From Halomonas organivorans (GTDB taxonomy: Bacteria; Pseudomonadota; Gammaproteobacteria; Pseudomonadales; Halomonadaceae): 64,000 nucleotides of DNA. The DNA is taken from assembly GCF_014192055.1 (NCBI RefSeq), contig NZ_JACHXM010000003.1:186001-250000 (forward strand). The letters are read 5' to 3'. The notes beneath the pieces were generated by a model, which made no database searches, had not been told where the DNA came from, and was given only the letters and a program-made list of their open reading frames with translations. Both the position numbers and the translations under genes were made by a program. How positions within the stretch are numbered: the stretch's first letter is position 1; every line of letters begins with the position of its first letter. Shown here in pieces: positions 11,645 to 31,287 of the stretch.

Positions 11645-11658
11645 TGGCGGAGGGGGAG
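11645..11658. repeat. Left attachment site (copy of tRNA-Ser 3' end)
   Basis: TGGCGGAGGGGGAG is identical to the sequence at 25240-25253, which covers the CCA end, discriminator and acceptor strand of tRNA-Ser(GGA) in reverse complement. Beyond these 14 bp the two copies diverge, as expected for an att core. It marks the distal boundary of the element. Confidence 0.75.
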
Positions 11659-12111
11659 TCCCCTCGTATTTCTTATAAATCAATATCTTGTTAATTAATT
11701 TACCACATACCCAACAAAGAACCTCACATAGAGAATGCTATTCCGTGATACGGGGAGATACCTCCGGCGAGCACTCTTCACCTCCGCTGCGAAGGCTCTC
11801 ATAGTGGCTGGGTCGGGCTCAGATTCCTACCCTTCGGGCGCCTCGATGCTATCCCTGTAGCAACGGGCAGCCAGGTGATAAGAGCGGGATGCTGGCGGTT
11901 TCCCGGTTTCAAACCGGAAAACGTGACGCCGAGTCACAATTACCGAACATGGCAGGCGGTGCGATGATCGTCGCATCAGGGCGGTCAGGCTAGCCGGCTG
12001 GGGCAGAGTGTCACAGGGTCACTCGTTGGGGGAGGCACTCCCCGGTATCAGGGTGGTGCCGGTAAAAGGTGGGGATTCCCATCTTTTCGCCAGAAGCTCG
12101 GCAGCGGGCCG
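11659..12111. other. Non-coding left end of the element
   Basis: About 450 bp with no supported gene. It starts AT-rich and contains one copy of the composite motif (TACCCAACAAA at 11708-11718, GTGATACGGG at 11745-11754). It also holds several inverted repeats, including CCGGTTT-C-AAACCGG near 11913, GCGATGATCGTCGC near 11964 and GGGGAG-GCA-CTCCCC near 12030. The last hairpin could end minus-strand transcription from the immunity gene. The region looks like an attachment-arm/regulatory end rather than coding DNA. Confidence 0.5.
11708..11754 (+). promoter_or_regulatory. Composite motif copy at the left end (candidate integrase arm site)
   Basis: TACCCAACAAA (11708-11718) followed by GTGATACGGG (11745-11754), 50-97 bp inside the left att core. 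Same order and orientation as the copy at 25117-25162. The DNA around it is AT-rich, as is usual for arm sites. Confidence 0.5.
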
Positions 12112-12300
12112 CTACCTCGCGGGTGCCTGGTCGTTCATGCAGGCCCAGACCAGGGCGACCACCCAACCGATGAAGGTCCAGCCGAGGAAGAGATTCAGCA
12201 TCGAGATGGCCACCGCATTCTCCTTGGACCGCATGACGGCCACGATCAGCGGCAGGAAGTAGACCACCACGGCGACGAAGAGCATCAGCAAGGCTTCCAT
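12112..12300 (-). CDS. Superinfection immunity family membrane protein
   Basis: 62-aa protein with two TM helices: YFLPLIVAVMRSKENAV and the signature ISMLNLFLGWTFIGWVVALVWA. The NLFLGWTxIGWxxALxWA motif is diagnostic of the superinfection-immunity family (PF14373) that includes T4 Imm. T4 Imm blocks DNA entry of superinfecting phage at the inner membrane. The start at 12300 follows GAGGAACAGGAC. It is the last minus-strand gene before the element's left end, a usual place for lysogen-protecting cargo. Many chromosomal homologues exist whose role is untested, so an exclusion function here is inferred. Confidence 0.8.
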   Translation of the reverse strand: MEALLMLFVAVVVYFLPLIVAVMRSKENAVAISMLNLFLGWTFIGWVVALVWACMNDQAPAR

Positions 12301-12310
12301 GTCCTGTTCC

Positions 12311-12748
12311 TCATAGCTTGTAGTTGCGGCGCAGTATGCCACGGATCTCGGGCTTAGCCTCCTCGAACCCCTTCTCGAGGAAGCGTGGCTCGCCTCGCGG
12401 GTCCCAGAACTTGCCCGCGTTCGACGCGAAGGCCTGGCGGCCGTCCGACGTGCCGAAGGCCTGCACCGAGGAGCGGGGCTGTCCCTTGAGCTTGCCAGAC
12501 GCCTCGTGGACGTAAAGAGCATAGTCGGCCGTGTAGCCCACGATGCCCCGGGTGCCGGTAAGCGTGTTGGTGACCTGGCGGTACCTGCTGTTGATCAGGT
12601 TCGCAGTATCGATCGGCGTCAACCGGGCGGCATACCCTTCGGCGGTAATGAGGATCTCGGTCATCGCCCGCTCGGTGACACGACCTCGAGCCTCCTTCAC
12701 CAGCCGGCCCATGTTCCGCCGGACATTGCGCCCACCTCGACTCGGCAT
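12311..12748 (-). CDS. HK97-gp10-like phage protein (tail completion/minor capsid)
   Basis: 145-aa basic protein. Features typical of the HK97 gp10/tail-completion family are an N-terminal basic helix, TPIDTANLINSRYRQV, GIVGYTADYALYVHEASGKLKG and a C-terminal PRFLEKGFEEAKPEIRGILRRNY. In complete siphophages this protein joins head-tail connector and tail terminator. Here the usual neighbours (connectors, terminator, tube) are missing. It could be a leftover, or could be used by a satellite to interact with helper tails. The stop lies 10 bp upstream of the immunity gene's start. Confidence 0.75.
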   Translation of the reverse strand: MPSRGGRNVRRNMGRLVKEARGRVTERAMTEILITAEGYAARLTPIDTANLINSRYRQVTNTLTGTRGIVGYTADYALYVHEASGKLKGQPRSSVQAFGTSDGRQAFASNAGKFWDPRGEPRFLEKGFEEAKPEIRGILRRNYKL

Positions 12749-12754
12749 TGTTGC

Positions 12755-13024
12755 CTATCCTCCCTCTACAGGGTACACGCCAAGCAGCTTCACCACGTCT
12801 CGACCACGACTGATGTCGAGCCCGGCAATATGCCGCTTCAAGCAGGCTTCCGAACTCTCGCCCTCGTGCCGATACGTCGCGGTGCCAGCTGTCCTGTATC
12901 CGGCCACCAACTGCCGCTCAGGGTCGCGCGACCCCGGCACCAGGAAGATGTGACGCACACTTGCGTCATCTCCACAGCCTTGAATCTCCACAGCCTCCAG
13001 GCGGTTCAGCAGGTCACGTCTCAT
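12755..13024 (-). CDS. Small phage protein of unknown function
   Basis: 89-aa product (MRRDLLNRLEAVEIQGC...). The ATG overlaps the previous gene's stop as ATGA, supporting translation in this frame. The middle (HIFLVPGSRDPERQLVAGYRT) looks like a beta-rich domain and the C-terminus ends VVKLLGVYPVEGG. I do not recognise a family. It belongs to the run of five coupled small genes between the DUF5681 and gp10-like genes. Confidence 0.6.
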   Translation of the reverse strand: MRRDLLNRLEAVEIQGCGDDASVRHIFLVPGSRDPERQLVAGYRTAGTATYRHEGESSEACLKRHIAGLDISRGRDVVKLLGVYPVEGG

Positions 13025-13323
13025 CACGATTCTCCTCCCCCAACGAACTTCTTGGCTTCCCGGTTCCACGGAGGCACCTCTAGTTGCAGATCCTCCATCC
13101 CCGGCAATCCACCGCACATCTCCCAGGCTATCCGGTAGGTCGCCTTCTTCACCTCCTCGGGAAGGTGCGCATTGTCGCTGTCGTAGCGCTCCCAAGTCAG
13201 GCGTTCAGCTCCATAGGCGAAGAGGGCCGTGAAGGCCTCCACCTCGTCCTTGTCGACGATGGGTAGGGTGCCCGGGGTTCTCTCCTCCAGGGCTTTCAGC
13301 CTGCGCAGGATCAATGCCCTCAC
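13024..13323 (-). CDS. Small phage protein of unknown function
   Basis: 99-aa product starting with GTG at 13323 (VRALILRRLKALEERTPG). GGGAGGTGA sits just upstream of that GTG and the start overlaps the preceding stop by four bases (GTGA). A longer TTG start at 13338 is possible but less likely. The protein is acidic and helical (EEVKKATYRIAWEMCGGLPGMEDL). No family recognised. It is coupled to both neighbours. Confidence 0.6.
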   Translation of the reverse strand: MRALILRRLKALEERTPGTLPIVDKDEVEAFTALFAYGAERLTWERYDSDNAHLPEEVKKATYRIAWEMCGGLPGMEDLQLEVPPWNREAKKFVGGGES

Positions 13324-13538
13324 CCCATCACCTCCCAATAGACGCGCTCGGCCTCGCTGGGCCCAACCGGGCGCAGCCGGCCTGCCTGGATGCCCCCATC
13401 GAGAATGCTTCGATATTGCCGGGCGGCCTCATGGGGGCAAGCAGTGGGCTGATAGACCGGCACTGGCCGACGTTGCCGGCCGACTCCAGCTCGAGCCTCA
13501 AGCACATCGAGGCGAGCCGCATTCCTGGATCGCGCCAT
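13320..13538 (-). CDS. Small phage protein of unknown function
   Basis: 72-aa basic protein (MARSRNAARLDVLEARAG...). A strong AAGGAGG lies 7 nt before the ATG, and the end overlaps the next start (GTGA). The C-terminal region (HEAARQYRSILDGGIQAG...EAERVYWEVMG) is helical. No known domain recognised. The tight overlaps suggest a genuine gene. Confidence 0.55.
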   Translation of the reverse strand: MARSRNAARLDVLEARAGVGRQRRPVPVYQPTACPHEAARQYRSILDGGIQAGRLRPVGPSEAERVYWEVMG

Positions 13539-13549
13539 CTGGAACCTCC

Positions 13550-13744
13550 TTATTGCTCTAGGTGGGTCGATGTCGAGGGGCCAAGAGTGGCCGCAATGCG
13601 CCGGGCCCGCTCCTGTGCCTCTTCCGGAGTATCGCCACCGACCCGAGCCATGGTCGCACCGCTCTCATCTTCGACCCGAGCGAAATAGCGACGCGGCAGG
13701 GGCTCTCCCCACCGAAAGTCAGGGTTGTGGTCAAGGATCCGCAT
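13550..13744 (-). CDS. Small phage protein of unknown function
   Basis: 64-aa product (MRILDHNPDFRWGEPLPRRYFARVEDESG...). The beta-rich N-terminus followed by an Ala/Arg helix (DTPEEAQERARRIAATL) resembles small domains with a DUF1508- or HicB-like strand-strand-helix order, but this is only a pattern match. The start overlaps the DUF5681 gene by 14 nt; AGGAGAGAG lies upstream. Function unknown. Confidence 0.5.
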   Translation of the reverse strand: MRILDHNPDFRWGEPLPRRYFARVEDESGATMARVGGDTPEEAQERARRIAATLGPSTSTHLEQ

Positions 13745-14135
13745 TTCTCTCTCCTTCTAGGGCCTCAAGGCGCCGAACGATTTCATCAACCTCCTGCACC
13801 TTGACCAGGCCGGCAATGGCGGCAATCAGCTCTTTCCCGGTGGCTGGGTCGAGGTCGCCGGCAGCGATCGCAGTCAGCACGCTGTCCGCCTTCTCGGTGA
13901 GCGTCTCGCCCTTCAGCTCGAAGCGCACCGGCTCAGCCTGAGGCTTATAGGCCGGCGTCAGACGTTCGAGACAAAGGCGCAAGGCCTGGGCGTCCCCGGA
14001 GAGCGCCATTTCCACGGCTTTGGTCACCAAGGCCTTGCCCTTTGGCTCCAACTCATTGCGCCAGGCTGTGCGCCGATCCGGGCGGCCCCTTGGCCGCCCT
14101 TTCGGGTTCCCTGACTGCCCCGGCTTGAATGCCAT
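13731..14135 (-). CDS. DUF5681 domain protein
   Basis: 134-aa protein opening with the DUF5681 signature FKPGQSGNPKGRPRGRPDRRTAWRN, a basic segment likely to contact nucleic acid. A helical region follows (KALVTKAVEMALSGDAQALRLCLERLTP) and then a C-terminal coiled segment (ELIAAIAGLVKVQEVDEIVRRLEALE). DUF5681 genes are common next to terminase genes in prophages and may be small-terminase-like, but that role is unproven. No large terminase is present in this element. The start is near GGAAAGAACAGG. Confidence 0.75.
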   Translation of the reverse strand: MAFKPGQSGNPKGRPRGRPDRRTAWRNELEPKGKALVTKAVEMALSGDAQALRLCLERLTPAYKPQAEPVRFELKGETLTEKADSVLTAIAAGDLDPATGKELIAAIAGLVKVQEVDEIVRRLEALEGERNADP

Positions 14136-14156
14136 CCTGTTCTTTCCTTGTTCTGT

Positions 14157-14558
14157 TTAGCGGGACGGCATGGTGCCGAGGTCATCACTGGAGCCCCCTC
14201 GGGCGTCGCGGCTTGGCATGGTGTCGTAGAAGCCTGCCTGGCGATTCGCCACAGTAGCCTCGCGCCCCCAGCGGACATGCTTCTTGAGGTCGGCACTGCC
14301 AGCCTGGATCGCGGCCAGGCCTTCAGCATCAAGGCTGCCCAGCACCTCACCTTGTTCGTTCACGATCTCGCCACGCTCAAAGGTATCGCCGTCGCGGTCA
14401 CCGACGTTCTTCTTAAAGACCACGGTTCCCTTCTCGTCATACAGGGTCAGGTAGAGCTTCCCACTCTGATTCTCCAGCTCTTCAACCGGGTCCTTGTCGC
14501 TGGACTCGGGTGCAGCTACGTTGCCCTGGAAGGCCGGAAGTAGTTGATTGCCGAACAT
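14157..14558 (-). CDS. Phage protein of unknown function
   Basis: 133-aa acidic protein (MFGNQLLPAFQGNVAAPESSDK...). The central segment LYLTLYDEKGTVVFKKNVGDRDGDTFERGEIVNEQGEVLGSLDAEGLAAI looks like a small beta domain, and the C-terminus is Ser/Arg-rich and disordered. No family is recognised. AGAGGAAATCGAC precedes the ATG. It lies between the tape-measure and DUF5681 genes on the same strand but is separated from the tape-measure gene by an oppositely oriented gene. Confidence 0.5.
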   Translation of the reverse strand: MFGNQLLPAFQGNVAAPESSDKDPVEELENQSGKLYLTLYDEKGTVVFKKNVGDRDGDTFERGEIVNEQGEVLGSLDAEGLAAIQAGSADLKKHVRWGREATVANRQAGFYDTMPSRDARGGSSDDLGTMPSR

Positions 14559-14722
14559 GTCGATTTCCTCTATCAGTTAGTTTGCACCCGAAAGCGCGGT
14601 TGGATCAGCGGCCAGAGATGGTACGCCGCAGTCCGTAGTTGCTGGCCACCTTGGCATTGTTGCCCTCCTGTCATTTTTGGCTGGTATGCTGGCCCTTCAA
14701 GTCATCGCAAAGAGGGGCAGAC

Positions 14723-14944
14723 ATGGAAATTAGCTTTGGCAGCGCGGACGAAGTCACAGGCAAGGTTCTTACTCGCTTCCAGATGAATGAAGACACTCCT
14801 GAAGGACATTTCCAATGCATCGAGATTGACGTCTGGGTGCCCGACCTTGACTCACTCTCCGAGCGTCAGCGCCACTCCAAGCAGGAGGCTCTTTCGATGC
14901 TTCGCCGGGCCGTTGCCACGCTCGAGGAAAATCTGGACGAGTAA
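14723..14944 (+). CDS. Small acidic protein, plus-strand insertion in the minus-strand phage genes
   Basis: 73-aa acidic protein (MEISFGSADEVTGKVLTRFQMNEDTPEGHF...). AGAGGGGCAG precedes the ATG, and a possible -10 (TATGCT) lies near 14683. The predicted beta-rich N-terminus and long C-terminal helix (SERQRHSKQEALSMLRRAVATLEENLDE) are protein-like. It is convergent with the tape-measure gene (24 bp apart) and has its own upstream region, so it behaves like a moron with independent expression. Function unknown. Confidence 0.6.
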   Translation: MEISFGSADEVTGKVLTRFQMNEDTPEGHFQCIEIDVWVPDLDSLSERQRHSKQEALSMLRRAVATLEENLDE

Positions 14945-14967
14945 GTGGTGGGGGTGGCGCTTCTGCG

Positions 14968-17067: not shown

Positions 17068-17075
17068 ACATCACC

Positions 17076-17657
17076 TCAATCCAAGGGATAGCTCTTGGCG
17101 TGCCCCGGCCCCACTGGAAAACCGTTCTCTCCCTGGTGCATGACGACTTCGGCCCGCTCGAACATGCCCTTCCCAACGCTACACACGCGGCGGGAGGTGA
17201 AGGCCCCCACATTCGGAACCTCGATGGCGTCCTTGGCGCCAGACTTGTCGATGATCTTGAGCGCGCCGGCATGTACCGCTTGTGCCTGCTCCCGGATCTC
17301 GGCATAGCGATCCAGGTGGCTGGCAAGCGTTTTCCAGGCCTCGTCAATGGCTGCCGCGGCCTCTTCTGCTTGCTCTGCCAAAGCGGAATGTTCATCCACC
17401 ACGCCCTTGAGCTTGGTCTGGGCGTCCTCGGCCCTGGCGATCGGCAGCCGAGCCTCGAGCGCCTGTCGCTCCACTCGCAGTCTCCGCGCCTGGCGCTCGG
17501 CCTCCAGGTGCGCGTCCTCGACTGCATCAACGTCGCCGCCATCGGCGATGACCCTACCCAGCTCGGCATCGAGATCCCGGGCATCGAAGGCACGTTGCTC
17601 CTCGGTGACCTCGGCCAGGCGCTGCTCGACGGCCTCAAGACTCATGGTGTTGATCAT
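17076..17657 (-). CDS. Coiled-coil phage protein of unknown function
   Basis: 193-aa protein. The N-terminal two thirds is a continuous charged coiled coil (EAVEQRLAEVTEEQRAFDARDLDAEL through LEARLPIARAEDAQTKLKG). The C-terminus is a short globular part with a cysteine (TSRRVCSVGKGMFERAEVVMHQGENGFPVGPG). The ATG at 17657 overlaps the previous stop (ATGA), with GGAGGGC upstream. It lies directly upstream of the tape-measure gene, where capsid scaffolds or tail chaperones often sit, but no similarity allows a call. Confidence 0.6.
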   Translation of the reverse strand: MINTMSLEAVEQRLAEVTEEQRAFDARDLDAELGRVIADGGDVDAVEDAHLEAERQARRLRVERQALEARLPIARAEDAQTKLKGVVDEHSALAEQAEEAAAAIDEAWKTLASHLDRYAEIREQAQAVHAGALKIIDKSGAKDAIEVPNVGAFTSRRVCSVGKGMFERAEVVMHQGENGFPVGPGHAKSYPLD

Positions 17658-17845
17658 GCTGGTTGCCCTCCAGGGCGGTGTGGTTGAGGGGTCTGCTCGC
17701 TGATGAAAACCAGCCAGCCGGCGGCATTTACGTCGCCACGTTCAGCGGCTTGCTGCAGGAGCTGGTAATAGCTGGCGATGGCCGCTTTGCCGGGGCGAAT
17801 GTTGCGGGCTCCGGCTGGACGGCCGCCTCGCTTCCCTTGGCTCAT
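17654..17845 (-). CDS. Small phage protein with basic GRPAGARN N-terminus
   Basis: 63-aa product (MSQGKRGGRPAGARNIRPGKAAIASYYQLLQQAAERGDVNAAGWLVFISEQ...). The basic glycine-rich start followed by a helix-turn-helix-like stretch resembles small terminase-associated proteins, but no family is certain. It is the first gene of the tape-measure operon. GAGGTGATACGTC precedes the ATG, and the GTGATACG part of this ribosome-binding region is also part of the element's repeated composite motif (17848-17887). Confidence 0.6.
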   Translation of the reverse strand: MSQGKRGGRPAGARNIRPGKAAIASYYQLLQQAAERGDVNAAGWLVFISEQTPQPHRPGGQPA

Positions 17846-17847
17846 GA

Positions 17848-17887
17848 CGTATCACCTCGGTGGATGGAATCGCATTTTTGTTGGGTA
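17848..17887 (-). promoter_or_regulatory. Composite motif copy upstream of the tape-measure operon
   Basis: On the minus strand TACCCAACAAA (17887-17877) is followed 32 bp on by GTGATACG (17855-17848), just before the 17845 start codon. The same pair in the same order occurs near both ends of the element. A second, weaker CCAACAA lies one helical turn further upstream. The surrounding 100 bp is AT-rich. Likely a promoter/operator bound by an element-encoded protein; it could be the integrase, AlpA or an activator. Confidence 0.45.
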
Positions 17888-17999
17888 TATTGTTGGTTAT
17901 TTGGAGTTTATACCCATAAACCATTGTTTTCAAATACTCCGATGCGGACCACATCTCCGCCAAACACCGCGACGTGAACCATGACCGATGTCAGGCAAC

Positions 18000-18029
18000 G
18001 GGGTGGTACGGGGTGGTACGGGGTAGAAC
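18000..18029 (+). repeat. Three tandem 10-bp repeats in the divergent control region
   Basis: GGGGTGGTAC occurs twice in tandem (18000-18009, 18010-18019), followed by a third variant GGGGTAGAAC (18020-18029). The 10-bp period places the copies on one face of the helix. They lie between the divergent starts at 17845 (minus) and 18111 (plus). This arrangement suggests an operator. Nothing identifies the binding protein. Confidence 0.45.
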
Positions 18030-18110
18030 AACAAAACTCGGTCGGGCACCATCTGGGTGGCCAGCATAGAGACTGGTGGAATAGAGCAAACAGGATCGTA
18101 GGGAACCAAA

Positions 18111-18599
18111 ATGAAGAAGATCATTCTTGCCGCGGCCGCATCACTCACTCTTGCGGGGTGTGCGGGCCCCTCAGTGATGCCACCCAACACGTCCACGGGG
18201 AACCAAACGGAAGCCTACAGCGCTGACTTTGATAGCGTTTGGGAAGGTGCCGTTGACTGGTTCGCCGTCAACAACATCCCAATCAAAAATATCGAGAAAG
18301 ATTCTGGAATCATCGGCTCCGAATACACACTTGGGGCAAACTACTCGCAGATTGACTGCGGCACCGTTAATCCAGGTGCGATGCACATCCTGCTCAACCA
18401 GAATGTAGTGGCCAATATCAATGTTCTAGTCCGAGAAACAAGTGCCGGCACCACCGTCCAGCCCAACGTTTTTGGACACGGAACAGCAATGCTGCGAGAT
18501 AACTGGAACGGTATGCCCGTACAGCTCCGGCTTGATAACTGCGTCAGCACTGGCGAGCTCGAAAGAAGCTTGCATCAGTACCTCAGCAGGAGCCTGTAA
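18111..18599 (+). CDS. Lipoprotein of unknown function (cargo gene)
   Basis: 162-aa predicted lipoprotein. The type II signal peptide MKKIILAAAASLTLAGC ends in lipobox LAGC with the lipidated Cys17. The mature part has YSADFDSVWEGAVDWFAVNNIPIKNIEKDSGIIGSEYTL, like small lipoproteins with a BamC/DUF3576-type fold, plus three further cysteines. Codon use is distinctly less GC-rich than in the host. It is on the plus strand, alone, with its own upstream region, so it is probably a lysogenic-conversion gene expressed from the integrated element. Function unknown; localisation to an outer or inner membrane cannot be fixed, although residue +2 is Ala, which favours the outer membrane. Confidence 0.75.
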   Translation: MKKIILAAAASLTLAGCAGPSVMPPNTSTGNQTEAYSADFDSVWEGAVDWFAVNNIPIKNIEKDSGIIGSEYTLGANYSQIDCGTVNPGAMHILLNQNVVANINVLVRETSAGTTVQPNVFGHGTAMLRDNWNGMPVQLRLDNCVSTGELERSLHQYLSRSL

Positions 18600-18693
18600 T
18601 GCCCCCTTTCGCGGGTTTCATGGTCTTTGAGGAAGGCGTGGGACAAGCGGCCAACGGCCTTGTTCTTTCTCTGTTCTGATCAGCAGCAACCAA

Positions 18694-18721
18694 ATCGGCC
18701 CCGGCAAGCGACGGGGCCGAT
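18694..18721. terminator. Perfect 10-bp hairpin between convergent genes
   Basis: ATCGGCCCCG (18694-18703), 8-nt loop, CGGGGCCGAT (18712-18721). It lies between the plus-strand lipoprotein and the minus-strand gene ending at 18745. It probably serves as a bidirectional terminator although U-tracts are weak. Confidence 0.55.
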
Positions 18722-18744
18722 AGTGGGCAAGGTTCGGGCAAGGG

Positions 18745-19029
18745 TCAGTGCAGCGGCTTGGGTGGCGTGGTGCGTAGCTGGTCGGCTATGTCCATCTTCT
18801 CGGCATGGGCCAGCAAGTCCTCCTCGCTGGCACCCAGCGCCTGGGCCAGGTCGGCCAGGTTGAACATGGGCCTTCCCTCCTCATCGACGCCTGACGGTTT
18901 CAGGCCCGGAAAGAACTCCTCCATGCCATGGCGCAGCGTCTCCAGGATCGGGCCGCGCAGGAACATCGGATGATCCTCGTCATGGGCGGCAGCATGGGCC
19001 AGAGTGTCGCGGATGATGGCGTCGGTCAT
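18745..19029 (-). CDS. Phage protein of unknown function
   Basis: 94-aa acidic protein (MTDAIIRDTLAHAAAHDEDHPMFLRGPILETLRHGMEEFFPGLKPSG...). The start at 19029 has GGAAG 8 nt upstream; an ATG two codons earlier is the alternative. The C-terminal half (FNLADLAQALGASEEDLLAHAEKM) has a helix-turn-helix-like pattern. It follows the 19046-19579 gene with a 16-bp gap, at the end of the replication operon. No family recognised. Confidence 0.6.
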   Translation of the reverse strand: MTDAIIRDTLAHAAAHDEDHPMFLRGPILETLRHGMEEFFPGLKPSGVDEEGRPMFNLADLAQALGASEEDLLAHAEKMDIADQLRTTPPKPLH

Positions 19030-19045
19030 GGGCATGTCTTCCAGG

Positions 19046-19579
19046 TCAGGGCGTCCGGTGGTCGTGCTGCATGCGCCAGCTGTCAGGCCGGATGAGGGCC
19101 AATAAGGTGCGGTTGGCGGCCCTCCTTCCAGCGTTCTCTTGGCGATGCGGCTTAGGCTCAGCCTCGGCGGCCTGCATCCAGGTCTGGATGTACCGCCTGG
19201 CAGCCCTCTCCATCGCTAACGGCGGGAGGGTGGCCAAGCGCGACCACACGTATTGCCGATCCTCTCGAAGCAGCGGCACCTGGCCGGCGATCCACTCGAG
19301 CCAGTCGGTCCGACTCGCCGCCTCAGGGTCAGGTTCTGATGCAACTCCGGAGGGCTCGCCAGGGGCTAAAAGTTGCACGGTTTCAGGGGTGTCGGTTGCA
19401 GCCGAGTTGCAATCACGGTTGCTTTCAATCTCTCGCAACCGCTTGTCTGCCAAGGCTTTGAGTCCGCCGGTTGCACTCCCGGTTGCATCCTGACCCCGCG
19501 AAGTTGCCCCCTTGGACTGGGAAAGTTGCGGGTTGCATCCCCTAGGGGGTGCAACGTGCAACTCTGGACGATCGCTCAT
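19046..19579 (-). CDS. Hypothetical protein of the replication operon
   Basis: 177-aa protein. The N-terminal half is low-complexity and likely disordered (GCNPQLSQSKGATSRGQDATG...). The C-terminal half is helical (WIAGQVPLLREDRQYVWSRLATLPPLAMERAARRYIQTWMQAAEA...), a pattern seen in accessory proteins encoded beside RepA-like helicases of integrative elements. The ATG at 19579 overlaps the ATPase stop (TGATG), indicating translational coupling. It may be a helicase loader or partner, but that is inference from position. Confidence 0.6.
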   Translation of the reverse strand: MSDRPELHVAPPRGCNPQLSQSKGATSRGQDATGSATGGLKALADKRLREIESNRDCNSAATDTPETVQLLAPGEPSGVASEPDPEAASRTDWLEWIAGQVPLLREDRQYVWSRLATLPPLAMERAARRYIQTWMQAAEAEPKPHRQENAGRRAANRTLLALIRPDSWRMQHDHRTP

Positions 19580-20628
19580 CACTCACCCCCTCCCTTCTTG
19601 GCCAGCAAGCCATCCCGCTCGGCCCGCTTGCGATACCGAGTAGCCGTGCTTTTGTGGATGTCCAACTCCCGGGCCGCCTCTGTCGGCGACAGCCCCTCAT
19701 TGAGGAGATCAACGACCCGCTGATAGGTGCTCTCCTGGAGCGGGAGCCAGGACCAGGTGGTGCCCCCGCTTGGGGAGCTGACCAGCTCGATCTCTCGCCC
19801 CTTGGCGTCGTCACCGTAGAAGCCCCGATTCTTCTCGAAATGAAGCTCGAACTTGGCGCCCTGGGCGTCGTCGTCCTCGCCTTTCGGGTAGCGGAGCGCG
19901 ATGACGGTATCCAGTACGTCCTCCCGGCGGCTGGTGCCGCGCTGCTGACCGCCCTTTCCGGCGTGGTGGACGAACAGCACCGTCTTCCCCTGGGCCCGCA
20001 TACGCAGGGCCCATTCCTGCACCATCAGCCAGCTTTCGCCTTCGTTCTCCTTTCCGGTCCGACAAAGGGTCGCGATGTTGTCCACCACGATGAGCTTGGC
20101 GGGATCGGTGAAGGGCTCGAGGGCTGTTTGGCCTTCCACGGTCGAGAGGTCCGGCATCCCCCTGGGCTGCAAGTCAGGCGTCAGCAGCTGCAGGGCCTCT
20201 GGCGCCGCCTCGTGCTCAGTGCTCTGGATGATGCTTGCGAATCGCTCCTGAAGGGCGATGGCCGGCATCTCCCCATCCAGGTAGAGCACCGGCGCCGGGG
20301 AAGGCGCCTCCCAGCCGAGAAAGGATCCTCCGGCAGCCACGGCGTAGCCCGCGTACATCGCAAACCAGGTCTTGCCGATGCCTCGAGGCGCATAGACCAT
20401 GGCCAGCCCGCTGGTGGGCAACCAGGGAGCCAGGAGCATGGTTCTCGGCGGGATGTTCAGGCCCAAGAAGTCGCCCAAGCTGATGGACTTCAGCGCCATC
20501 GATGCCGCGGTTTCCTCATAAGCACTTGCTGGCGGCGTCGGCGGCCCCTCGCTGGGAACCGGCCTCAGCTTAGCCGCGGTGTTGGCTCGCTCATCGAGCC
20601 AGCTGGCCCCTGTGTCACGTTCAGACAT
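19579..20628 (-). CDS. RepA-like AAA ATPase / replicative helicase (AAA_25 type)
   Basis: 349-aa RecA-fold ATPase. Walker A APRGIGKT is at about residues 80-87, VLYLDGEMP follows it (a typical RepA/AAA_25 element), Walker B KLIVVDN, then VLFVHHAGKGGQQRGTSRREDVLD, which corresponds to the sensor/hexamer-interface region. The C-terminus carries a helix-turn-helix (LSPTEAARELDIHKSTATRYRKRAERDGLL). Plasmid and satellite RepA helicases of this class unwind origins as hexamers. The start at 20628 overlaps the zinc-finger gene by 8 nt. This is the likely replication motor of the element. Confidence 0.82.
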   Translation of the reverse strand: MSERDTGASWLDERANTAAKLRPVPSEGPPTPPASAYEETAASMALKSISLGDFLGLNIPPRTMLLAPWLPTSGLAMVYAPRGIGKTWFAMYAGYAVAAGGSFLGWEAPSPAPVLYLDGEMPAIALQERFASIIQSTEHEAAPEALQLLTPDLQPRGMPDLSTVEGQTALEPFTDPAKLIVVDNIATLCRTGKENEGESWLMVQEWALRMRAQGKTVLFVHHAGKGGQQRGTSRREDVLDTVIALRYPKGEDDDAQGAKFELHFEKNRGFYGDDAKGREIELVSSPSGGTTWSWLPLQESTYQRVVDLLNEGLSPTEAARELDIHKSTATRYRKRAERDGLLAKKGGGE

Positions 20629-21094
20629 GGCAACCCACCTCCTCCGCGGCACCGCGCAGGCGCCCGACGGCCTTGGCCAGGCGGTCCAGGTCGGTGCGCT
20701 GGAGAGGCTTGCCAGACTGCACCGCCTCCGCCGCCAGCATGACCACCACCGCCTCCCTGGAGATGGCAGCCAACACATCTCGGGGGACCCAGCGCTCGCC
20801 GGATCGCTTGCTTGTGCGGAAGGCCTCCTGTTCCCGCTGGGGGAACAGGTCGGCCAAGGACATGCCGACGGCAGCCATCACATCCGCGGTCGGGCATCCG
20901 GTGAAGCACTTCACCAGCAGTGTGCCATCCTCGGTCTCTCGGATTGCCAGGCTCGGCGATCGGTCATCATGCGCTGGGCAGCATGCAAGCCACCTGCCCG
21001 TGCCATTCGCCTTTACCTTGTCCAACCGGGCGAGGAGCCGGTGCACATCGGCCCCGGTCCGATACTCAGCCCTCGGCAGCTGATCAGCTCGCAT
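20621..21094 (-). CDS. CHC2 zinc-finger (primase-type) protein lacking a catalytic domain
   Basis: 157-aa protein with a DnaG-type zinc-binding fold: Cys39-Pro-Ala-His42, then Cys63 and Cys67 (RWLACCPAHDDRSPSLAI...LLVKCFTGC), followed by PTADVMAAVGMSLADLFP. This is the primase zinc module seen in phage and plasmid primase-helicases. No TOPRIM or archaeo-eukaryotic primase domain follows; after about residue 85 there is only a helical tail. With the downstream RepA-like ATPase it looks like a primase-helicase split into two genes with the polymerising domain absent. The start (MRADQLPRAEY) overlaps the upstream stop by 11 nt. Confidence 0.8.
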   Translation of the reverse strand: MRADQLPRAEYRTGADVHRLLARLDKVKANGTGRWLACCPAHDDRSPSLAIRETEDGTLLVKCFTGCPTADVMAAVGMSLADLFPQREQEAFRTSKRSGERWVPRDVLAAISREAVVVMLAAEAVQSGKPLQRTDLDRLAKAVGRLRGAAEEVGCHV

Positions 21095-21311
21095 GGAAGG
21101 GCCCTCCTCCGTTGCGGCGGACTTCCTCAAAGCAGCCATGGATCGAGCGGATCGTATCCGCGATGTGCCCCGTGGCATCGACCAGGGGCTGGTAATGAGC
21201 CTGGGGATGACCGGCATCGGCCAGGGCATGGGCGACGGCATCCACCCGATCGCCCAGCGCCAGCAGCTCTTCAGTGACCTTCACCAGATCGGCAGCTTGC
21301 TCATACGTCAT
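21084..21311 (-). CDS. Small hypothetical protein
   Basis: 75-aa helical protein (MTYEQAADLVKVTEELLALGDRVDAVAHALADAGHPQAHYQPLVDATGHIADTI...). The start at 21311 has TTGAGG upstream and is 5 bp from the preceding stop. No domain recognised. Part of the coupled chain from 22193 to 19046. Confidence 0.55.
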   Translation of the reverse strand: MTYEQAADLVKVTEELLALGDRVDAVAHALADAGHPQAHYQPLVDATGHIADTIRSIHGCFEEVRRNGGGPFHAS

Positions 21312-21315
21312 AGCC

Positions 21316-21600
21316 TCAATGCCTCCCCTGCTTGTTCCCTGCGACCGTCTCGAAGGGAAGCGCCTCGATCTCGTCCACCAGCGCACTGGCTTCTCGCTCG
21401 GTGAGCTCGCCATACCACTTCATGATGAGAATGGCGCCACCACAGAAGAGCTTCCGGCTATTCAGCTCATCCTCGGTGCTGCTCTCGAGCAGCGTGTCCA
21501 GGGAAGCCGTGAGAGGATGGGCCCGGTGTCGCCCCATGAACTCGTCGATCCACATGCGAGCGTCCTGCGCCACGTTCAGGCGAATGGTTTTATCCGGCAT
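21316..21600 (-). CDS. Small hypothetical protein
   Basis: 94-aa protein (MPDKTIRLNVAQDARMWIDEFMGRHRAHPLTASLDTLLESSTEDELNSRKLFC...). The start is set at 21600 by the strong GGAGGTGACC just before the ATG; a longer start at 21621 exists. A mixed N-terminal strand followed by helices suggests a small DNA-binding or antitoxin-like fold, but no family is recognised. Confidence 0.6.
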   Translation of the reverse strand: MPDKTIRLNVAQDARMWIDEFMGRHRAHPLTASLDTLLESSTEDELNSRKLFCGGAILIMKWYGELTEREASALVDEIEALPFETVAGNKQGRH

Positions 21601-21799
21601 GGTCACCTCCACTGCCTGCATTGATCTCCTGGATTTTCGCCGTGTGGTAGGCGAGGTTCTCCATCAGCCCGGACATGATGTCGTCGTTCAAGACGTTGTG
21701 GTCTTCCTGGCCGCCGTAGTGATCAACCAGCAGCTCGGCCAATGCCCAAGCCTGGCGGGCGTGCGAATCGATATGATCAGAGGTGGTGGGGTAGCTCAT
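21590..21799 (-). CDS. Small hypothetical protein
   Basis: 69-aa acidic helical protein (MSYPTTSDHIDSHARQAWALAELLVDHYGGQEDHNVLNDDIMSGLMENLAYHTAKIQEI...). GAGGAGGGCGACGC lies before the ATG. It overlaps its neighbours on both sides by 4-11 nt. The ALAELLVDHYG...LNDDIMSGLMENLAYHTAKIQ pattern is like short phage proteins of the DUF3077/DUF6124 type, but I cannot assign it firmly. Confidence 0.55.
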   Translation of the reverse strand: MSYPTTSDHIDSHARQAWALAELLVDHYGGQEDHNVLNDDIMSGLMENLAYHTAKIQEINAGSGGDHAG

Positions 21800-22020
21800 G
21801 CGTCGCCCTCCTCATCCTGCAGCTCGCGGGCGAAGTCGTCGAAGTCGCAGGCGGCGATGTCGGCGGAATCATGGGAAAGACTGGCGATACGCTTGGCGTG
21901 CTTGATGGCATCGGGCTGATCCGACTCCATCAGCACCACGATGGTCTTGAACATCGTGGCGGCGTTTTGCAGGTGCTCACTCGCCAGGGTCAGGTTGTCG
22001 TAGTGATCGGTGTGATTCAT
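21796..22020 (-). CDS. Small hypothetical protein
   Basis: 74-aa acidic helical protein (MNHTDHYDNLTLASEHLQNAATMFKTIVVLMESDQPDAIKHAKRIASLSHDSADIAACDF...). CAGGAGGTGGCGTC precedes the ATG; the start overlaps the upstream stop and the end overlaps the next start (ATGA). Similar in size and style to the 21590-21799 product, possibly diverged paralogues. Function unknown. Confidence 0.55.
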   Translation of the reverse strand: MNHTDHYDNLTLASEHLQNAATMFKTIVVLMESDQPDAIKHAKRIASLSHDSADIAACDFDDFARELQDEEGDA

Positions 22021-22193
22021 GACGCCACCTCCTGGCCGGCAACGCGGGCCTCCAGGCGGCGAGCTTTCTGGATGTGGTGGTTATAGCGGCGCAGCCGAAC
22101 GGCGGCGCTTGAATCAGAGAAAAGGGCTGATTTCGCCATCGCTCGATGAGCAGCGGCGCGTGCGGACGCACTCCGGGTAAGGAGGGGGATCAT
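22017..22193 (-). CDS. Small basic hypothetical protein
   Basis: 58-aa Arg/Ala-rich protein (MIPLLTRSASARAAAHRAMAKSALFSDSSAAVRLRRYNHHIQKARRLEARVAGQEVAS). It overlaps the next gene by 4 nt (ATGA), which argues that this short frame is translated. AGGAG lies about 9 nt upstream. First gene of the replication operon downstream of the hairpin-rich region 22194-22440. No family recognised. Confidence 0.45.
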   Translation of the reverse strand: MIPLLTRSASARAAAHRAMAKSALFSDSSAAVRLRRYNHHIQKARRLEARVAGQEVAS

Positions 22194-22465
22194 GGGTCTG
22201 ACTCCTGTATCTGTGGAGTCGTCCCCGGCTGCGGCCAAGCAGCTGATGGGGGCGACTGTACGCGGGTTGGCCGACCGGGGATACAGGATCCCGGCACACC
22301 CGAAGGTGTCCCGCGCACAGCCGCCATAACGCATAGCGGGCACAAAAAAGCGCCTGCTATGAGAGGGGCGCTTGTGCGCCTGTATCCTTTCGACCGGCCA
22401 AGGTCGGCCACGGAATTTGCCGTGGCTCCCCCATGGTAGTGAGACGGGATGATATGCGCAAGCAT
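22190..22465 (-). CDS. Ash-like phage leader ORF
   Basis: 91-aa frame starting at the ATG that overlaps the alpA stop (TAATG). The segment VMAAVRGTPSGVPGSCIPGRPTRVQSPPS has the MxGRxGxxxGxPVSxxxG-like shape of the phage Ash family found beside alpA in P4-type elements. The DNA beneath it is rich in hairpins and contains a terminator at 22343-22373, so the conserved entity may be an RNA (C4/CI-type antisense regulator) and not a protein. Another frame over the same DNA is also open. Moderate to low confidence. Confidence 0.4.
   Translation of the reverse strand: MLAHIIPSHYHGGATANSVADLGRSKGYRRTSAPLIAGAFLCPLCVMAAVRGTPSGVPGSCIPGRPTRVQSPPSAAWPQPGTTPQIQESDP
22343..22373 (-). terminator. Intrinsic terminator downstream of alpA
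   Basis: On the minus strand AAGCGCC, an 12-nt loop, then GGCGCTTTTTTG: a 7-bp stem with a U6 tract (stem arms 22348-22354 and 22367-22373). It lies inside the Ash-like ORF, so transcription from alpA would normally stop here unless anti-terminated, as in the P4 immunity region. Confidence 0.65.
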
Positions 22466-22662
22466 TAGGCGACCTCCTCGCGGGAGGATTCCCACGCTTC
22501 AAGGTCGGCCAGGTTCCAGCGGGTGCAGTTGTCGCCCAGCTTCTTGGGCTTGGGGAACTCGGTGCGGGCCTTTGACCACCGCCAGATGGTGGCCACTCCG
22601 ACGCCATAGCGATCAGCGACTTGGTTGGCGTTAAGCCATGCTTGGTTGGTCTGGGATGTCAT
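22465..22662 (-). CDS. alpA: AlpA-family DNA-binding protein
   Basis: 65-aa winged-helix/MerR-like regulator of the AlpA family. Signature elements are AWLNANQVADRYGVGVATIWRWSKA, FPKPKKLGDNCTRWNLADLEAWE. AlpA proteins of P4-like elements regulate the integrase gene and can act as excisionases. The start at 22662 (MTSQTNQAWL) fits the family length; an upstream ATG at 22704 would add 14 residues. The gene lies between the integrase-proximal cargo gene and the hairpin-rich control region. Upstream (22663-22790) is AT-rich promoter DNA. Confidence 0.85.
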   Translation of the reverse strand: MTSQTNQAWLNANQVADRYGVGVATIWRWSKARTEFPKPKKLGDNCTRWNLADLEAWESSREEVA

Positions 22663-22793
22663 GCCTTGATGCCCTATGCGATGGATTGCAAGGGCATCGT
22701 GCATCGAAGTCTATCCGCATAAACTGCCAGTATTAGAAAAAAATATTACATGCCGTCAACAGATGCTTAACTCGACATGCAAAACATCAGTGA

Positions 22794-23738
22794 TCAAGAA
22801 TGCATGCTTTCCATTTCCGAAGACTTTGCAGTAAGGTCATCAATGTACCCTCCTTCCACTCGCCGAATGAACCTACCTACCGTCTTGGAGGGCATCATAT
22901 CGACCTCCCCGTACCGCCCACCAAAAAGAGCGCTTGCCATGCACTTCTTCGTAATGGTGCAACCTGTCAAAAAGCTCCATGACTCAAGATCAGCATAGGC
23001 CGCAACGCGATACTCAAACAGCTTCCTCACATCCGAATATCTAGCTCTATCAGCCCCGTTGTTGCGACCAGGCAGCGAGCGAAGGTGTCCTTCTATCTGC
23101 CTGATTACCGTTGGAATTGTTGGATATGGATCCACCATCAAAAAATCACCCATGTCACTATCTCGAACAGGTATATGCCTCTGAATGGCAATTCTCACGC
23201 TATCGGTATCCCATCCGTTCTTTGCCGACAACCGCTCAGCCGTGCGATCTATCTCCTTAACAAGCTCCTCATTTTCTTTCAACCACTCCATCATGTCCGC
23301 GAGAGTTACCTGGCTAATGCCATCTTCGCTTAAGACGCTTGGCTTGTGGCCAAGAATCCTATCTACCTCGTGGGCACAGCATGTAGAGAACTGCTCTTCT
23401 TCACGCCGCCTTTCACTTAGATAGCCTTTGTAATCAAAACTGCCCTTCTCCTTACACCGCTCGTGAAAAATTTCAATTAGAAGCTTGTTAACATTTCGCT
23501 CATAAGGGCATGAGGATATTTCCGACAACTTCTCGAGCACTGCCTCCCGAGTATTGCCTGGGCACCCTGGAGTATCTTCATCAAAGATAACAAAGCCAGA
23601 GGATATGATGTCCTTTATCCAAAGCCTATCGCTCACTGACATAGCTGCTTCATAGGGGTCTTTGTCTTCCCATTGCTCGTATGGCCGAATATCGAACCAT
23701 TCGGGAAGCTCGCTGACATCGCGGATCATCTTGTTCAT
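22794..23738 (-). CDS. Integrase-adjacent hypothetical protein (DUF6387-like)
   Basis: 314-aa cytosolic protein starting MNKMIRDVSELPEWFDIRPYEQWEDKDPYEAAMSVSDRLWIKD. The LPEWF-x-I/L-xx-Y opening and the position beside a tyrosine integrase match my memory of the DUF6387 family, but I cannot confirm this. It contains several Cys and charged helices and no nuclease or ATPase motif that I can see. GC content is clearly lower than in its neighbours, and it has many AT-ending codons. This implies recent acquisition. Cargo genes at this spot often encode phage defence, so this is a candidate defence gene. Function unknown. Confidence 0.6.
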   Translation of the reverse strand: MNKMIRDVSELPEWFDIRPYEQWEDKDPYEAAMSVSDRLWIKDIISSGFVIFDEDTPGCPGNTREAVLEKLSEISSCPYERNVNKLLIEIFHERCKEKGSFDYKGYLSERRREEEQFSTCCAHEVDRILGHKPSVLSEDGISQVTLADMMEWLKENEELVKEIDRTAERLSAKNGWDTDSVRIAIQRHIPVRDSDMGDFLMVDPYPTIPTVIRQIEGHLRSLPGRNNGADRARYSDVRKLFEYRVAAYADLESWSFLTGCTITKKCMASALFGGRYGEVDMMPSKTVGRFIRRVEGGYIDDLTAKSSEMESMHS

Positions 23739-23845
23739 CGCGCTACTCCTGCGCTTACTCCATCCATTGAAGAGGCCGGCCAGTGCGGTGGAGTGTGCCG
23801 CACGTTCGGGAGCGACCCTAGGCCAGCCAACAGGGGCGGCGCCGG

Positions 23846-25099
23846 CTATTCGGCAGACGCCTTATTCTCGCGAATCGAGGTGACATTCCCGGCCTTGGCG
23901 GGCGGGGTGTCGATGAAGTCAGCCCATTGCTGCATCAGCTTGGCCCGCTTGGCCAACAGGTCGCCACGCCGGTAGGCCGCTTCGGCGTCGTTCTTGATGG
24001 TGTGCGCCAAGGCCATCTCAGCGATGTGGTGCGGGGTGCTGGTGCGCTCGGCCGTCCAGTCACGGAACGTCGATCGGAGGCCGTGAACGGTGGTCTTGTC
24101 GCTCATGCCCATCCGCTTGAGCACCGCGGACATGCCAGCATCAGAGAGCCGGCCGCCCCGCGGTGCGCTGAAGATGAGGCCGCCGCCCTTGCAGGGCATG
24201 CCGCGCAGCAGATCGACAGCCGCGTCTGAGAGCGGCACGCGATGCTCCTTGCCAGCCTTCATGCGCTCCGCAGGGATGGTCCAGACGCGGCTCTCCAGGT
24301 CGATCTCCTCCCAGCATGCAGAACGGGCCTCATTGGACCTCACGGCGGTCAGCGCCACCAGCTCGAGGCAGCGGGCAGCCTCGCCTTTACGCTTGCGCAG
24401 GGCGGCCATGAAGTCGTGCACCTCGTCGATCGGCAGGGCCCGATGGTGCTTCACCTTGGAGATGCGGGTAGGCGCCGGCAGGATGGCATCCAGATTGTTC
24501 TTCCAGACGGCCACATTGGGAGCGTCCCGGTAGCCATGGGCCGAGGCATAGGCCAGCACGGTCTCGATCCGCTGGCGAACCCTGGTCATGGTCTCGGTCT
24601 TCTCCTCCCAATACGGCTCGAGGACCTGGACGATGTGGGGTAGCTCGATGTCGCCGATAGCCATCTTGCCGAGGACCGGATAGGCGTATGCCTCCAAGGT
24701 GGAAGCCCACTGCTTGCCATGCTTTGGATTGCTGGCCTCAGCCTGCTTCTTCTTGATCACCGCGGCGGCGCATTGCTCGAAGGTGATGGCCTTGGCCTGG
24801 GCGGCGATGAGCTCGCTTCGCTTGGCCTGGCGCTCGAGCACGGGGTCGATGCCCTCCTCTCGGATCCGGCGCTTGAGCTCGGCCGCATCCTCCCTCGCCC
24901 TGGCCACGGGCACCTCGCTGGCACTGCCGAGGCCGATGTCCCGGCGCTTGCTGCCCACTGTCGTCCTGAGGATCCAGGAGCGGCCACCGTTCTTGCTCAC
25001 CTGCAGGTGCAGGCCCGGCGCACCGCCCACGGCATAGAAGCCTGGCTCGACCAGCCGCTTGATCTCCAGGGGGGTAAGTGCCTTCGCAACCTTGGGCAT
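23846..25099 (-). CDS. int: Tyrosine integrase (P4/DUF4102 type)
   Basis: 417-aa site-specific recombinase. The N-terminal arm-binding domain (DUF4102-like: LTPLEIKRLVEPGFYAVGGAPGLHLQVSKNGGRSWILR) is followed by a core-binding SAM-like domain and the C-terminal catalytic domain. Catalytic residues are visible: Arg254 (TAVRSNEARS), His339 and Arg342 (VHGLRSTFRDW), His365 (ALAHTIKND) and nucleophile Tyr376 (EAAYRRGD). The gene points away from tRNA-Ser and starts 140 bp from it, the standard layout for integration into a tRNA 3' end. Intact, so the element may still excise. Confidence 0.95.
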   Translation of the reverse strand: MPKVAKALTPLEIKRLVEPGFYAVGGAPGLHLQVSKNGGRSWILRTTVGSKRRDIGLGSASEVPVARAREDAAELKRRIREEGIDPVLERQAKRSELIAAQAKAITFEQCAAAVIKKKQAEASNPKHGKQWASTLEAYAYPVLGKMAIGDIELPHIVQVLEPYWEEKTETMTRVRQRIETVLAYASAHGYRDAPNVAVWKNNLDAILPAPTRISKVKHHRALPIDEVHDFMAALRKRKGEAARCLELVALTAVRSNEARSACWEEIDLESRVWTIPAERMKAGKEHRVPLSDAAVDLLRGMPCKGGGLIFSAPRGGRLSDAGMSAVLKRMGMSDKTTVHGLRSTFRDWTAERTSTPHHIAEMALAHTIKNDAEAAYRRGDLLAKRAKLMQQWADFIDTPPAKAGNVTSIRENKASAE

Positions 25100-25116
25100 A
25101 TCCGCCTCTCACATCC

Positions 25117-25162
25117 TACCCAACAAAAAAGTTTGTGATTGGATGGTAGTAGGTGATACGGG
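25117..25162 (+). promoter_or_regulatory. Composite motif copy at the right end (candidate integrase arm site)
   Basis: TACCCAACAAA (25117-25127) followed by GTGATACGGG (25153-25162), between the integrase start and tRNA-Ser. The left end carries the same two blocks with almost the same spacing (11708-11718 and 11745-11754). Position near both att cores suggests integrase arm-type or excisionase sites. Confidence 0.5.
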
Positions 25163-25202
25163 CTAATACAAGGAAATGGCGTAACGGCGGGACCCAGACA
25201 CG

Positions 25203-25227
25203 AAAAAGCCGCCTCGATGGGCGGCTT
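25203..25227 (-). terminator. Intrinsic terminator of tRNA-Ser, carried by the element
   Basis: On the minus strand AAGCCGCC-CATCGA-GGCGGCTT with a U5 tract (stem 25206-25213/25220-25227). It lies 13 bp downstream of the tRNA-Ser CCA end but on the element's side of the att core, so the integrated element appears to provide a new terminator for the tRNA. Confidence 0.8.
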
Positions 25228-25239
25228 AATCTGCTGTTC

Positions 25240-25253
25240 TGGCGGAGGGGGAG
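25240..25253. repeat. Right attachment site within the tRNA-Ser 3' end
   Basis: TGGCGGAGGGGGAG, identical to 11645-11658. Covers CCA, discriminator and acceptor 3' strand plus the start of the T-stem. Confidence 0.75.
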
Positions 25254-31212: not shown

Positions 31213-31287
31213 TGGAGCGGGAAACGAGATTCGAACTCGCGACCCTCGCCTTGGCAAGGCGATGCTCTACCACTGAGCTATTCCCGC
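31213..31287 (-). tRNA. tRNA-Gly(GCC), copy 1
   Basis: 75 nt with encoded CCA; acceptor GCGGGAA/TTCCCGC; anticodon loop CTTGCCAA gives GCC; T-loop GTTCGAATC. Identical to the copies at 31501 and 31774. Confidence 0.97.

Follow-up and report, generated by a model that had tools for sequence, protein, structure and literature searches.

In the phage-inducible chromosomal island-like elements (PLEs) of Vibrio cholerae, a satellite-encoded tape measure protein (TMP), tail assembly chaperone (TAC) and BhuB take the place of their counterparts from the phage ICP1, as described in March 2026 (PMC12987554). PLE11 virions contain the PLE TMP and BhuB and have tails that are ~10 nm shorter, and PLE transduction without tmp is reduced by 96–99.9% (~99.9% for PLE11) (PMC12987554). 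Putative tmp genes have also been reported from PLE-like elements and from some sampled capsid-forming phage-inducible chromosomal islands (cf-PICIs) (PMC12987554, Extended Data Fig. 10 legend), and the authors, who leave benefit and mechanism open, suggest that tail manipulation is broader. Here we analyze a 13.6-kb element with its own TMP gene, inserted at tRNA-Ser(GGA) in a 64,000-nucleotide stretch of the Halomonas organivorans genome (the window). On balance, we favor the view that it is a complete integrative satellite of a modular, mainly Halomonadaceae lineage, known here from sequence alone, that would build chimeric tails on helper parts. An earlier, sequence-only reading of the window had called a satellite of this kind a new type, which is too strong now that chimeric tails have been demonstrated for PLEs (PMC12987554): because satellite TMPs and chimeric tails are already known from PLEs, the element apparently represents a new, undescribed lineage and not a categorically new kind. 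New here are a tail-module plan without recognized head genes in halophiles, the interchange, among related elements, of genes for the TMP, the major capsid protein (MCP) and the large terminase (TerL), and a candidate shared operator. We found no description of Halomonadaceae TMP satellites in open PubMed Central papers, a search that left most subscription journals and bioRxiv outside its reach.

The likeness to PLEs lies in a TMP gene on a (here putative) satellite, in the TAC or baseplate hub genes of the window's relatives, and in a satellite TMP that differs in length from that of the phage (as called, 699 aa versus 750 aa in the closest prophage TMP found; 95 aa for PLE11, PMC12987554). 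The differences are that the window has no recognized TAC or hub gene (TAC genes occur in six relatives) and carries genes for an HK97-gp10-like protein (gp10) and a superinfection immunity protein (Imm), that its host belongs to the Halomonas group and is not V. cholerae with ICP1, that its TMP matches siphophage-like prophages whereas ICP1 is contractile, and that it uses tRNA-Ser integration, AlpA, a short leader, and CHC2 and RepA-like proteins and is known from its genes alone. Relatives sharing the leader and AlpA resemble cf-PICIs in carrying MCP, portal and TerL genes (L118, L120, L246, L247 and L249; L denotes a locus and G a genome), whereas the window has no recognized capsid set of its own. 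Its integrase/AlpA/primase plan recalls P4-like satellites, which have a single fused alpha-type primase-helicase and the capsid genes sid/psu, whereas in the window CHC2 and AAA_25 are separate genes and tail genes are present; sid/psu had no match in the window scans with Pfam and PHROGs, although the presence of such models in these libraries was unchecked. The size (~10–15 kb), integrase, AlpA regulator and replication genes are like those of phage-inducible chromosomal islands (PICIs); for their packaging-redirection genes, DUF5681 would be a candidate counterpart, as a possible terminase. By gene plan only, the element can be likened to Pseudomonas AH14b, a 16.8-kb int-AlpA-primase element packaged in particles of helper proteins, which is reported to lack genes for structural proteins (PMC4936722), whereas the window carries tail genes. 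In SaPIbov5, the capsid-protein homologue Ccm is a captured virion protein that redirects helper assembly (PMC8569155), comparable to a major head protein found in one relative (L092), albeit for the head and not the tail and in an unrelated element.

Boundaries and gene content of the element

The element is flanked by the 14-bp repeat TGGCGGAGGGGGAG, whose second copy (25240-25253) is the 3′ end of tRNA-Ser(GGA), and the left copy is bordered on its outer side by a terminator hairpin (11601-11635). A 14-bp repeat alone could be due to chance, and we accept these ends because in G167 the site is uninterrupted, with tRNA-Ser directly followed by the same hairpin (63 bp, 92% identical to the window); G147 has the same arrangement (82.5%). 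A query of the tRNA and flank matched all 76 genomes of the genus group, which includes Halomonas elongata (G235 and G223 weakly). The att repeats that the sequence-only reading had placed at tRNA-Ser were thus borne out.

Open reading frames (ORFs) were taken from a home-made caller and assigned to families with Pfam and PHROGs. From the tRNA inwards, the order is int, DUF6387, alpA, the Ash-like leader, small ORFs, CHC2, the RepA-like gene, s177 and s96. A plus-strand lipoprotein gene then divides the element, and beyond it s63, s193, TMP, s133, DUF5681, four small ORFs, gp10 and imm make up a distinct block that has an upstream region to itself. The integrase, AlpA, leader, CHC2, RepA-like, TMP, gp10-like, DUF5681 and immunity genes that had been named from the letters were confirmed by these scans or by alignment, and the frames of all named genes are open, as had been claimed. 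In the scanned window ORFs, head, portal, large-terminase, tube, baseplate and lysis families gave no match above noise, in agreement with the earlier statement that such genes are missing; small ORFs such as 14723-14944 (+), 21084-21311 and 21796-22020 fell outside these scans. With no recognized MCP, portal or TerL, the element would therefore need helper capsids.

The CHC2 match in Pfam (1.7e-4) is below Pfam's cut-off, and the Cor superinfection-exclusion signal on the lipoprotein is only 0.0047, over its first 19 residues. DUF5681 gave a 'cement' match at noise level (0.0085) and none of small terminase (TerS) type, and noise elsewhere comprised TAC_6 on CHC2 (0.085) and a TerS family on the helix-turn-helix (HTH) end of the RepA-like protein (0.0075). 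A distant relative of DUF5681 (34%, 1e-5) lies two genes before TerL in phage Bas81. Three of the four small ORFs have phmmer homologues in the H. elongata 153B genome (G212), with their order kept. An AlphaFold2 model of s193 (mean predicted local distance difference test score, pLDDT, 79.8; predicted template modeling score 0.50) has a helix at residues 43-139 (~97 residues) and shorter helices; its 138 Protein Data Bank matches at E<=10 included none at E<=0.001, so that a known fold was rejected, and a role in capsid redirection is possible only as a guess. Just past the TMP gene, on the opposite strand, 14723-14944 (+) encodes a possibly real 73-aa ORF.

Table 1. Features of the element, by position in the window
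Feature	Coordinates	Strand	Basis or remark
Left attachment core, a displaced duplicate of the tRNA-Ser 3′ terminus	11645..11658	-	14-bp repeat TGGCGGAGGGGGAG
Motif TACCCAACAAA, left end copy	11708-11718	+	exact match
Superinfection immunity membrane protein (Imm)	12112..12300	-	PF14373 3.5e-19; phrog_1039 1.1e-23
HK97-gp10-like tail completion/Neck1 protein	12311..12748	-	phrog_5 1.4e-13
Four small ORFs, some 'RLEALE' type	12755..13744 (13550-13744, 13320-13538, 13024-13323, 12755-13024)	-	
DUF5681, candidate small-terminase-like protein	13731..14135	-	PF18932 1.8e-14
s133	14157..14558	-	no PHROG family; Pfam noise only
TMP, 699 aa	14968..17067	-	phrog_2854 9.9e-62; no Pfam match
s193, helical protein	17076..17657	-	phmmer homologues in L083, L089, L093, L095, L096, L097
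s63, small protein opening morphogenesis block	17654..17845	-	alignment; s63 profile matches in family genomes
Motif TACCCAACAAA, s63 copy	17877..17887	-	~30 bp upstream of s63 start
Lipoprotein, possible moron	18111..18599	+	LPAM_1 0.006
s96, conserved replication-cassette gene	18745..19035	-	homologues in G033, G212
s177, conserved gene after helicase	19046..19579	-	phrog_852 1.8e-8
RepA-like AAA_25 ATPase, C-terminal HTH	19579..20628	-	PF13481 3e-27
CHC2 zinc-finger protein (split primase part)	20621..21094	-	PHROG primase phrog_6088 7e-16
58-aa 'Ash-like' leader, element hallmark	22017..22193	-	12-row alignment
AlpA/HTH_17 regulator, possible excisionase	22465..22662	-	PF05930, PF12728 (scanned as 22465-22704)
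DUF6387 protein	22794..23738	-	PF19924 1.3e-7; homologue at equivalent place in H. elongata 153B
Tyrosine integrase, 417 aa	23846..25099	-	Pfam Phage_integrase, Arm-DNA-bind_3
Motif TACCCAACAAA, right end copy	25117-25127	+	exact match
tRNA-Ser(GGA), right attachment site	25240..25327	-	ARAGORN

Relatives at the same site and across the family

A largely syntenic copy occupies the same tRNA-Ser in H. elongata 153B (G212; L095/L124), with the order int-DUF6387-alpA-ash-...-s63-s193-TMP-DUF5681-s64-s72-s88-gp10. The search for the gene block in other Halomonadaceae was thus successful, and with this copy and the s63-bearing relatives the element is not a one-off deletion. Judged by their flanking genes, nine s63 elements sit at the window's tRNA-Ser (L082, L083, L085, L090-L092, L094, L095 and L098), six of them with both cores visible, 6.8–15.6 kb apart. 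A capsid protein was found in three (L090 and L092 by PHROG, L091 by resemblance), and reference hidden Markov models (HMMs) found no portal in any of the nine. At 20 further tRNA-Ser sites, from 20 of the 76 genus genomes, the same HMMs found no TerL, portal or MCP (0/20) on the element side, which was covered for ~19 kb at 18 sites and for ~3 kb at two (contig ends). The case that would speak for a deletion derivative, a full prophage between the same ends, was therefore not encountered among these nine elements and 20 sites, in a survey limited to 20 of 76 genomes plus the s63 loci and using HMMs that miss some prophages (5/30). At the tRNA-Ser site of G183 (L264, 91-12191), a core copy lies 11.9 kb from the tRNA beside AlpA and integrase matches, apparently reflecting other elements at the same site.

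Searching 275 family genomes with an s63 profile yielded 41 matches, spread over 38 genomes (E<=0.01). Of these matches we read 37 neighborhoods (all except G019, G126, G202 and G177:C6), several of them weak (E 1e-3 to 0.01, e.g. G193, G096, G139, G177:C5). A TMP of one of several types was present in 18 of the 37 (the window, L036, L039, L080, L081, L083, L084, L086, L090, L091, L094, L095, L099, L102, L103, L108, L109 and L112), including phrog_2854 (window), phrog_1533 (L084, 4e-49) and phrog_9483 (L094, 2.5e-50), as well as the TMP-like proteins of L103 and L108, which include a lysozyme/lytic portion. Fourteen of these 18 loci yielded no MCP or portal match and no complete TerL. The exceptions were L090, with MCP and scaffold genes (PHROG), L091, with the same genes by resemblance, L103, with TerL and a baseplate hub, and L108, with a TerL-like ORF by resemblance only; in L086, a TerL-like fragment of 54 aa lies past the satellite-like genes. 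L036 and L091 end at contig ends, and for G160 and G263 the int side of the element was read from L133 and L137. A weak single head match could be hidden, because the pooled PHROG and Pfam scans covered 99 of the 150 unannotated proteins that remained after deduplication (169 of >=80 aa) and the best 25 of 125 and 25 of 46 families.

Prophages provided a control for the missing head genes. A TMP search of 201 family genomes matched in 54, and of the 32 loci read, 30 were taken as prophages and two (G144 and G033) were satellite-like, without a head or terminase match. The reference HMMs recognized TerL, portal or MCP in 25 of the 30 prophage loci (all except L042, L233, L242, L243 and L245), or in 21 of 26 once the four loci used as reference sources (L034, L037, L041 and L045) are set aside. 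These HMMs were built from few proteins, partly drawn from the loci that they later scored, which makes a match automatic for those four and for many s63 loci; among the five intB references, one was out of frame.

The genes accompanying s63 and TMP vary among the relatives. A TAC lies near the TMP in G033, G144, G160, G263, G151 and G119, and a baseplate hub in the G099 relative, where L103 (7034-12509) encodes the TMP-like/lytic protein, the hub (7.2e-56) and the large terminase (1.4e-24), a pairing of TMP and hub like that of PLE11. At the same tRNA-Ser site as the window, L092 (9371-10462) has a major head protein (phrog_10, 7.6e-39) in the slot after s63, with no TMP. In TMP-less L101 (9052-10068), L104, L105, L106 and L113, s63 is directly followed by a member of the s330 family (~325–340 aa), without a PHROG match in L101; s330-like proteins also follow TerS in TMPb elements. 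The idea that s193 and s330 are versions of one protein was rejected by a negative profile comparison (probability 1.8%). L086, L087, L089 and L103 share a second recurrent insertion neighborhood, beside NUDIX-like and YccA-like genes (named by eye).

Scanning GTDB species genomes for the leader gene returned 79 loci, chiefly from Halomonas, Vreelandella, further Halomonadaceae and Pseudomonas, six of them with a TMP by HMM: L124 (H. elongata), L125 and L170 (H. ramblicola), L136 (H. colorata), L143 (V. nigrificans) and L179 (Halomonas sp. Y3). A protease-MCP precedes the TMP in L170 (scanned), as does a similar ORF in L179 (by eye only). Two Vreelandella loci (L118, L120) are int-AlpA-leader elements with MCP-portal-TerL, and 11 Pseudomonas loci (L158, L159, L161, L164, L168, L169, L171, L173, L174, L191 and L192), most with AlpA and the leader and none with a recognized TMP, match an HMM of the L092 head protein. 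Among viral contigs there were 12 loci, including two TMP elements (L248, L250) and three of capsid type (L246, L247 and L249, IMG/VR contigs of 9.8–11.1 kb with MCP, portal and TerL); together with L118 and L120, the latter are apparent capsid-forming satellites. None of five IMG/VR loci had the terminal redundancy that would point to circles, scanning viral contigs for TMP genes brought up no confirmed relative, and Vibrio phage 187P1 (15.4 kb, TMP match) was rejected as a satellite, being a head-plus-tail phage contig.

In 50,697 phage records we found no match to the leader (E<=0.01), s63 (E<=1) or s193 (E<=0.1), the last so far confined to such elements, one match to RepA (30% identity, 3e-14), 197 to the TMP and 315 to gp10. 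Because the leader, s63 and s193 are absent from these records and TMP and gp10 are abundant there, we read the element as a probable satellite chassis carrying phage-derived virion genes.

The motif TACCCAACAAA has exactly three exact copies in the element (0.04 expected at <=1 mismatch, mononucleotide shuffles): one lies 50 bp in from the left core, a second ~110 bp in from the right end, upstream of int, and a third, inverted, at s63. The same pattern of ends plus inverted s63 copy (<=1 mismatch) recurs in L083, L087, L089, L090 and, within the part that its contig covers, L091, with 0.03–0.20 expected per region (mononucleotide shuffles); L082 has s63 copies only, L092 one end copy, and L082 and L094 have 7-mer pairs at the ends and s63. 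Because relatives too carry the motif upstream of s63, we dropped the idea of a nested element that the inverted internal copy had raised. In phage P4 the excisionase Vis has a second role as a regulator of late promoters, so that excision and morphogenesis could plausibly be coupled here in a P4-like way, through the candidate shared operator.

Outside the element, the window also holds three tandem tRNA-Gly(GCC)/tRNA-Glu(TTC) pairs (31213-31948, minus strand).

Origin of the tape measure gene and competing explanations

Homologues of the window's TMP, gp10 and imm occur in a siphophage-like prophage of G084. The window TMP aligns with the prophage TMP over residues 1-688 of 699 (53%), and its 120-aa segments over residues 61-360 are 71–82% identical to it, which suggests a G084-type siphophage as the helper. 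Compared with the H. elongata copy, gp10 is 68% identical (dN/dS, the ratio of nonsynonymous to synonymous substitution rates, 0.18), int 66% (0.19), DUF5681 63% (0.31) and the C-terminal part of the TMP 54% (0.28). Across ten TMP pairs dN/dS was 0.24–0.60: 0.24 for G160/G263 and for two G171 copies, 0.26 for the window and the G084 prophage, 0.53 for G151/G119 (0.18 N-terminal), 0.36 for G144/G033 (0.14 N-terminal) and 0.34–0.60 for the remainder, with synonymous sites near saturation in distant pairs; N-terminal values in three pairs were 0.06, 0.14 and 0.18. We read the high values as including exchanged segments; gp10 and most compared TMP segments look constrained, with signs of purifying selection.

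The alternative that survives best, although we consider it unlikely, is that the element is an interference satellite whose TMP, with gp10 and Imm, acts as a decoy or dominant-negative factor against tail assembly or DNA injection by a helper or competitor phage and is absent from transducing particles. Tail assembly is a known defense target, as for Tab, which targets the TMP (PMC10884400), Tai, found in PICIs and P4-like satellites (PMC11364771), and Rta, which targets the ICP1 TMP (PMC12987554), and imm lies in the same block as the TMP gene. However, Rta is small (80 aa) and unlike a TMP (PMC12987554), whereas the TMP here aligns nearly end to end with that of the prophage, and tail-completion genes stand beside TMPs of two types (gp10 in the window and G212, GPZ in G049).

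Less probable still is that the TMP, MCP and similar genes are passengers, gained in a cargo slot by recombination with resident prophages and of no satellite function. Slot content does vary (TMP, MCP, family-less genes), the TMPs are mosaic, and dN/dS reaches 0.60 in some pairs, but the identifiable slot genes are all for morphogenesis (TMP, MCP, scaffold, TerS, TerL and hub), several dN/dS values are low, and several relatives retain the TMP together with a chaperone, hub or completion protein. A decayed siphoprophage that has lost its head, tube, tip and lysis genes is very improbable, for although the G084 prophage has homologues of TMP, gp10 and imm, a largely syntenic copy sits at the same site in another species, the TMP-upstream-of-gp10 order differs from that prophage, no phage record matched the leader, s63 or s193, and neither pseudogenes in the window nor head genes at the 20 further tRNA-Ser sites were seen. 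Of the two options in the sequence-only reading, a satellite with its own TMP is therefore favored by the recurrence, the syntenic copy and the lack of a full prophage at the tRNA-Ser sites surveyed, and the decayed siphophage is not.

Several observations weigh against our preferred reading of a complete tail-building satellite. The H. elongata copy has other replication genes, with no CHC2/RepA or imm match, and the plan is therefore shared only in part; its TMP is 36% identical to the window's overall (dN/dS 0.49, and 0.67 over residues 1-370), the pair being mosaic with near-saturated synonymous sites. Over most segments the window TMP is nearer the prophage TMP than other satellite TMPs, and a recent capture is therefore likely, and 19 of the 37 s63 elements have no recognized TMP, which is therefore not essential to the lineage. 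No TAC or baseplate hub was recognized in the window, and CHC2, the RepA-like protein and s177 distantly match phage protein families (PHROG). DUF5681 may be a small terminase, a proposal based on one gene neighborhood (Bas81), and its model is poor (mean pLDDT 62, unfit for structure search). The 11-mer motif was absent from L085, L094 and L098, and from L095 in an exact 9-mer search. Finally, G000 yielded no resident helper whose TMP is close, although at least one prophage there has TMP and head genes.

A possible cycle and its meaning

If the element is indeed a complete satellite, growth of a helper siphophage would lead the AlpA-type protein to promote Int-mediated excision, and the motif common to the att ends and the s63 promoter would tie the expression of the s63 block to excision. 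Its own CHC2 and RepA-like proteins would replicate the element, and DUF5681 and/or s63 would direct its DNA into helper capsids in a small-terminase-like manner. Its TMP and gp10-like protein would replace those of the helper, giving chimeric tails on the helper's tube and tip proteins that, given the lengths of the two TMPs, would probably be slightly shorter, and Imm would shield the carrier cell from superinfection.

More tentatively, and as a possibility well short of probable, the relatives may share a morphogenesis toolkit in which one slot, switched on by the excision protein, is loaded variously with a TMP of one of several types, a capsid protein, TerL or a combination of these, so that related satellites would switch between hijacking tails, heads and packaging, and in which a tail with its own TMP, gp10 and Imm would be exempt from exclusion and from tail-targeting defenses directed at the helper TMP. 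The comparisons suggest that the borrowing of tail-building genes may be recurrent among such phage parasites. If this is true, the lineage would allow tests of why satellites swap tape measures and how the helper TMP is excluded, and, through the TMP, MCP and TerL variants of one plan, of a common switch for excision and tail genes.

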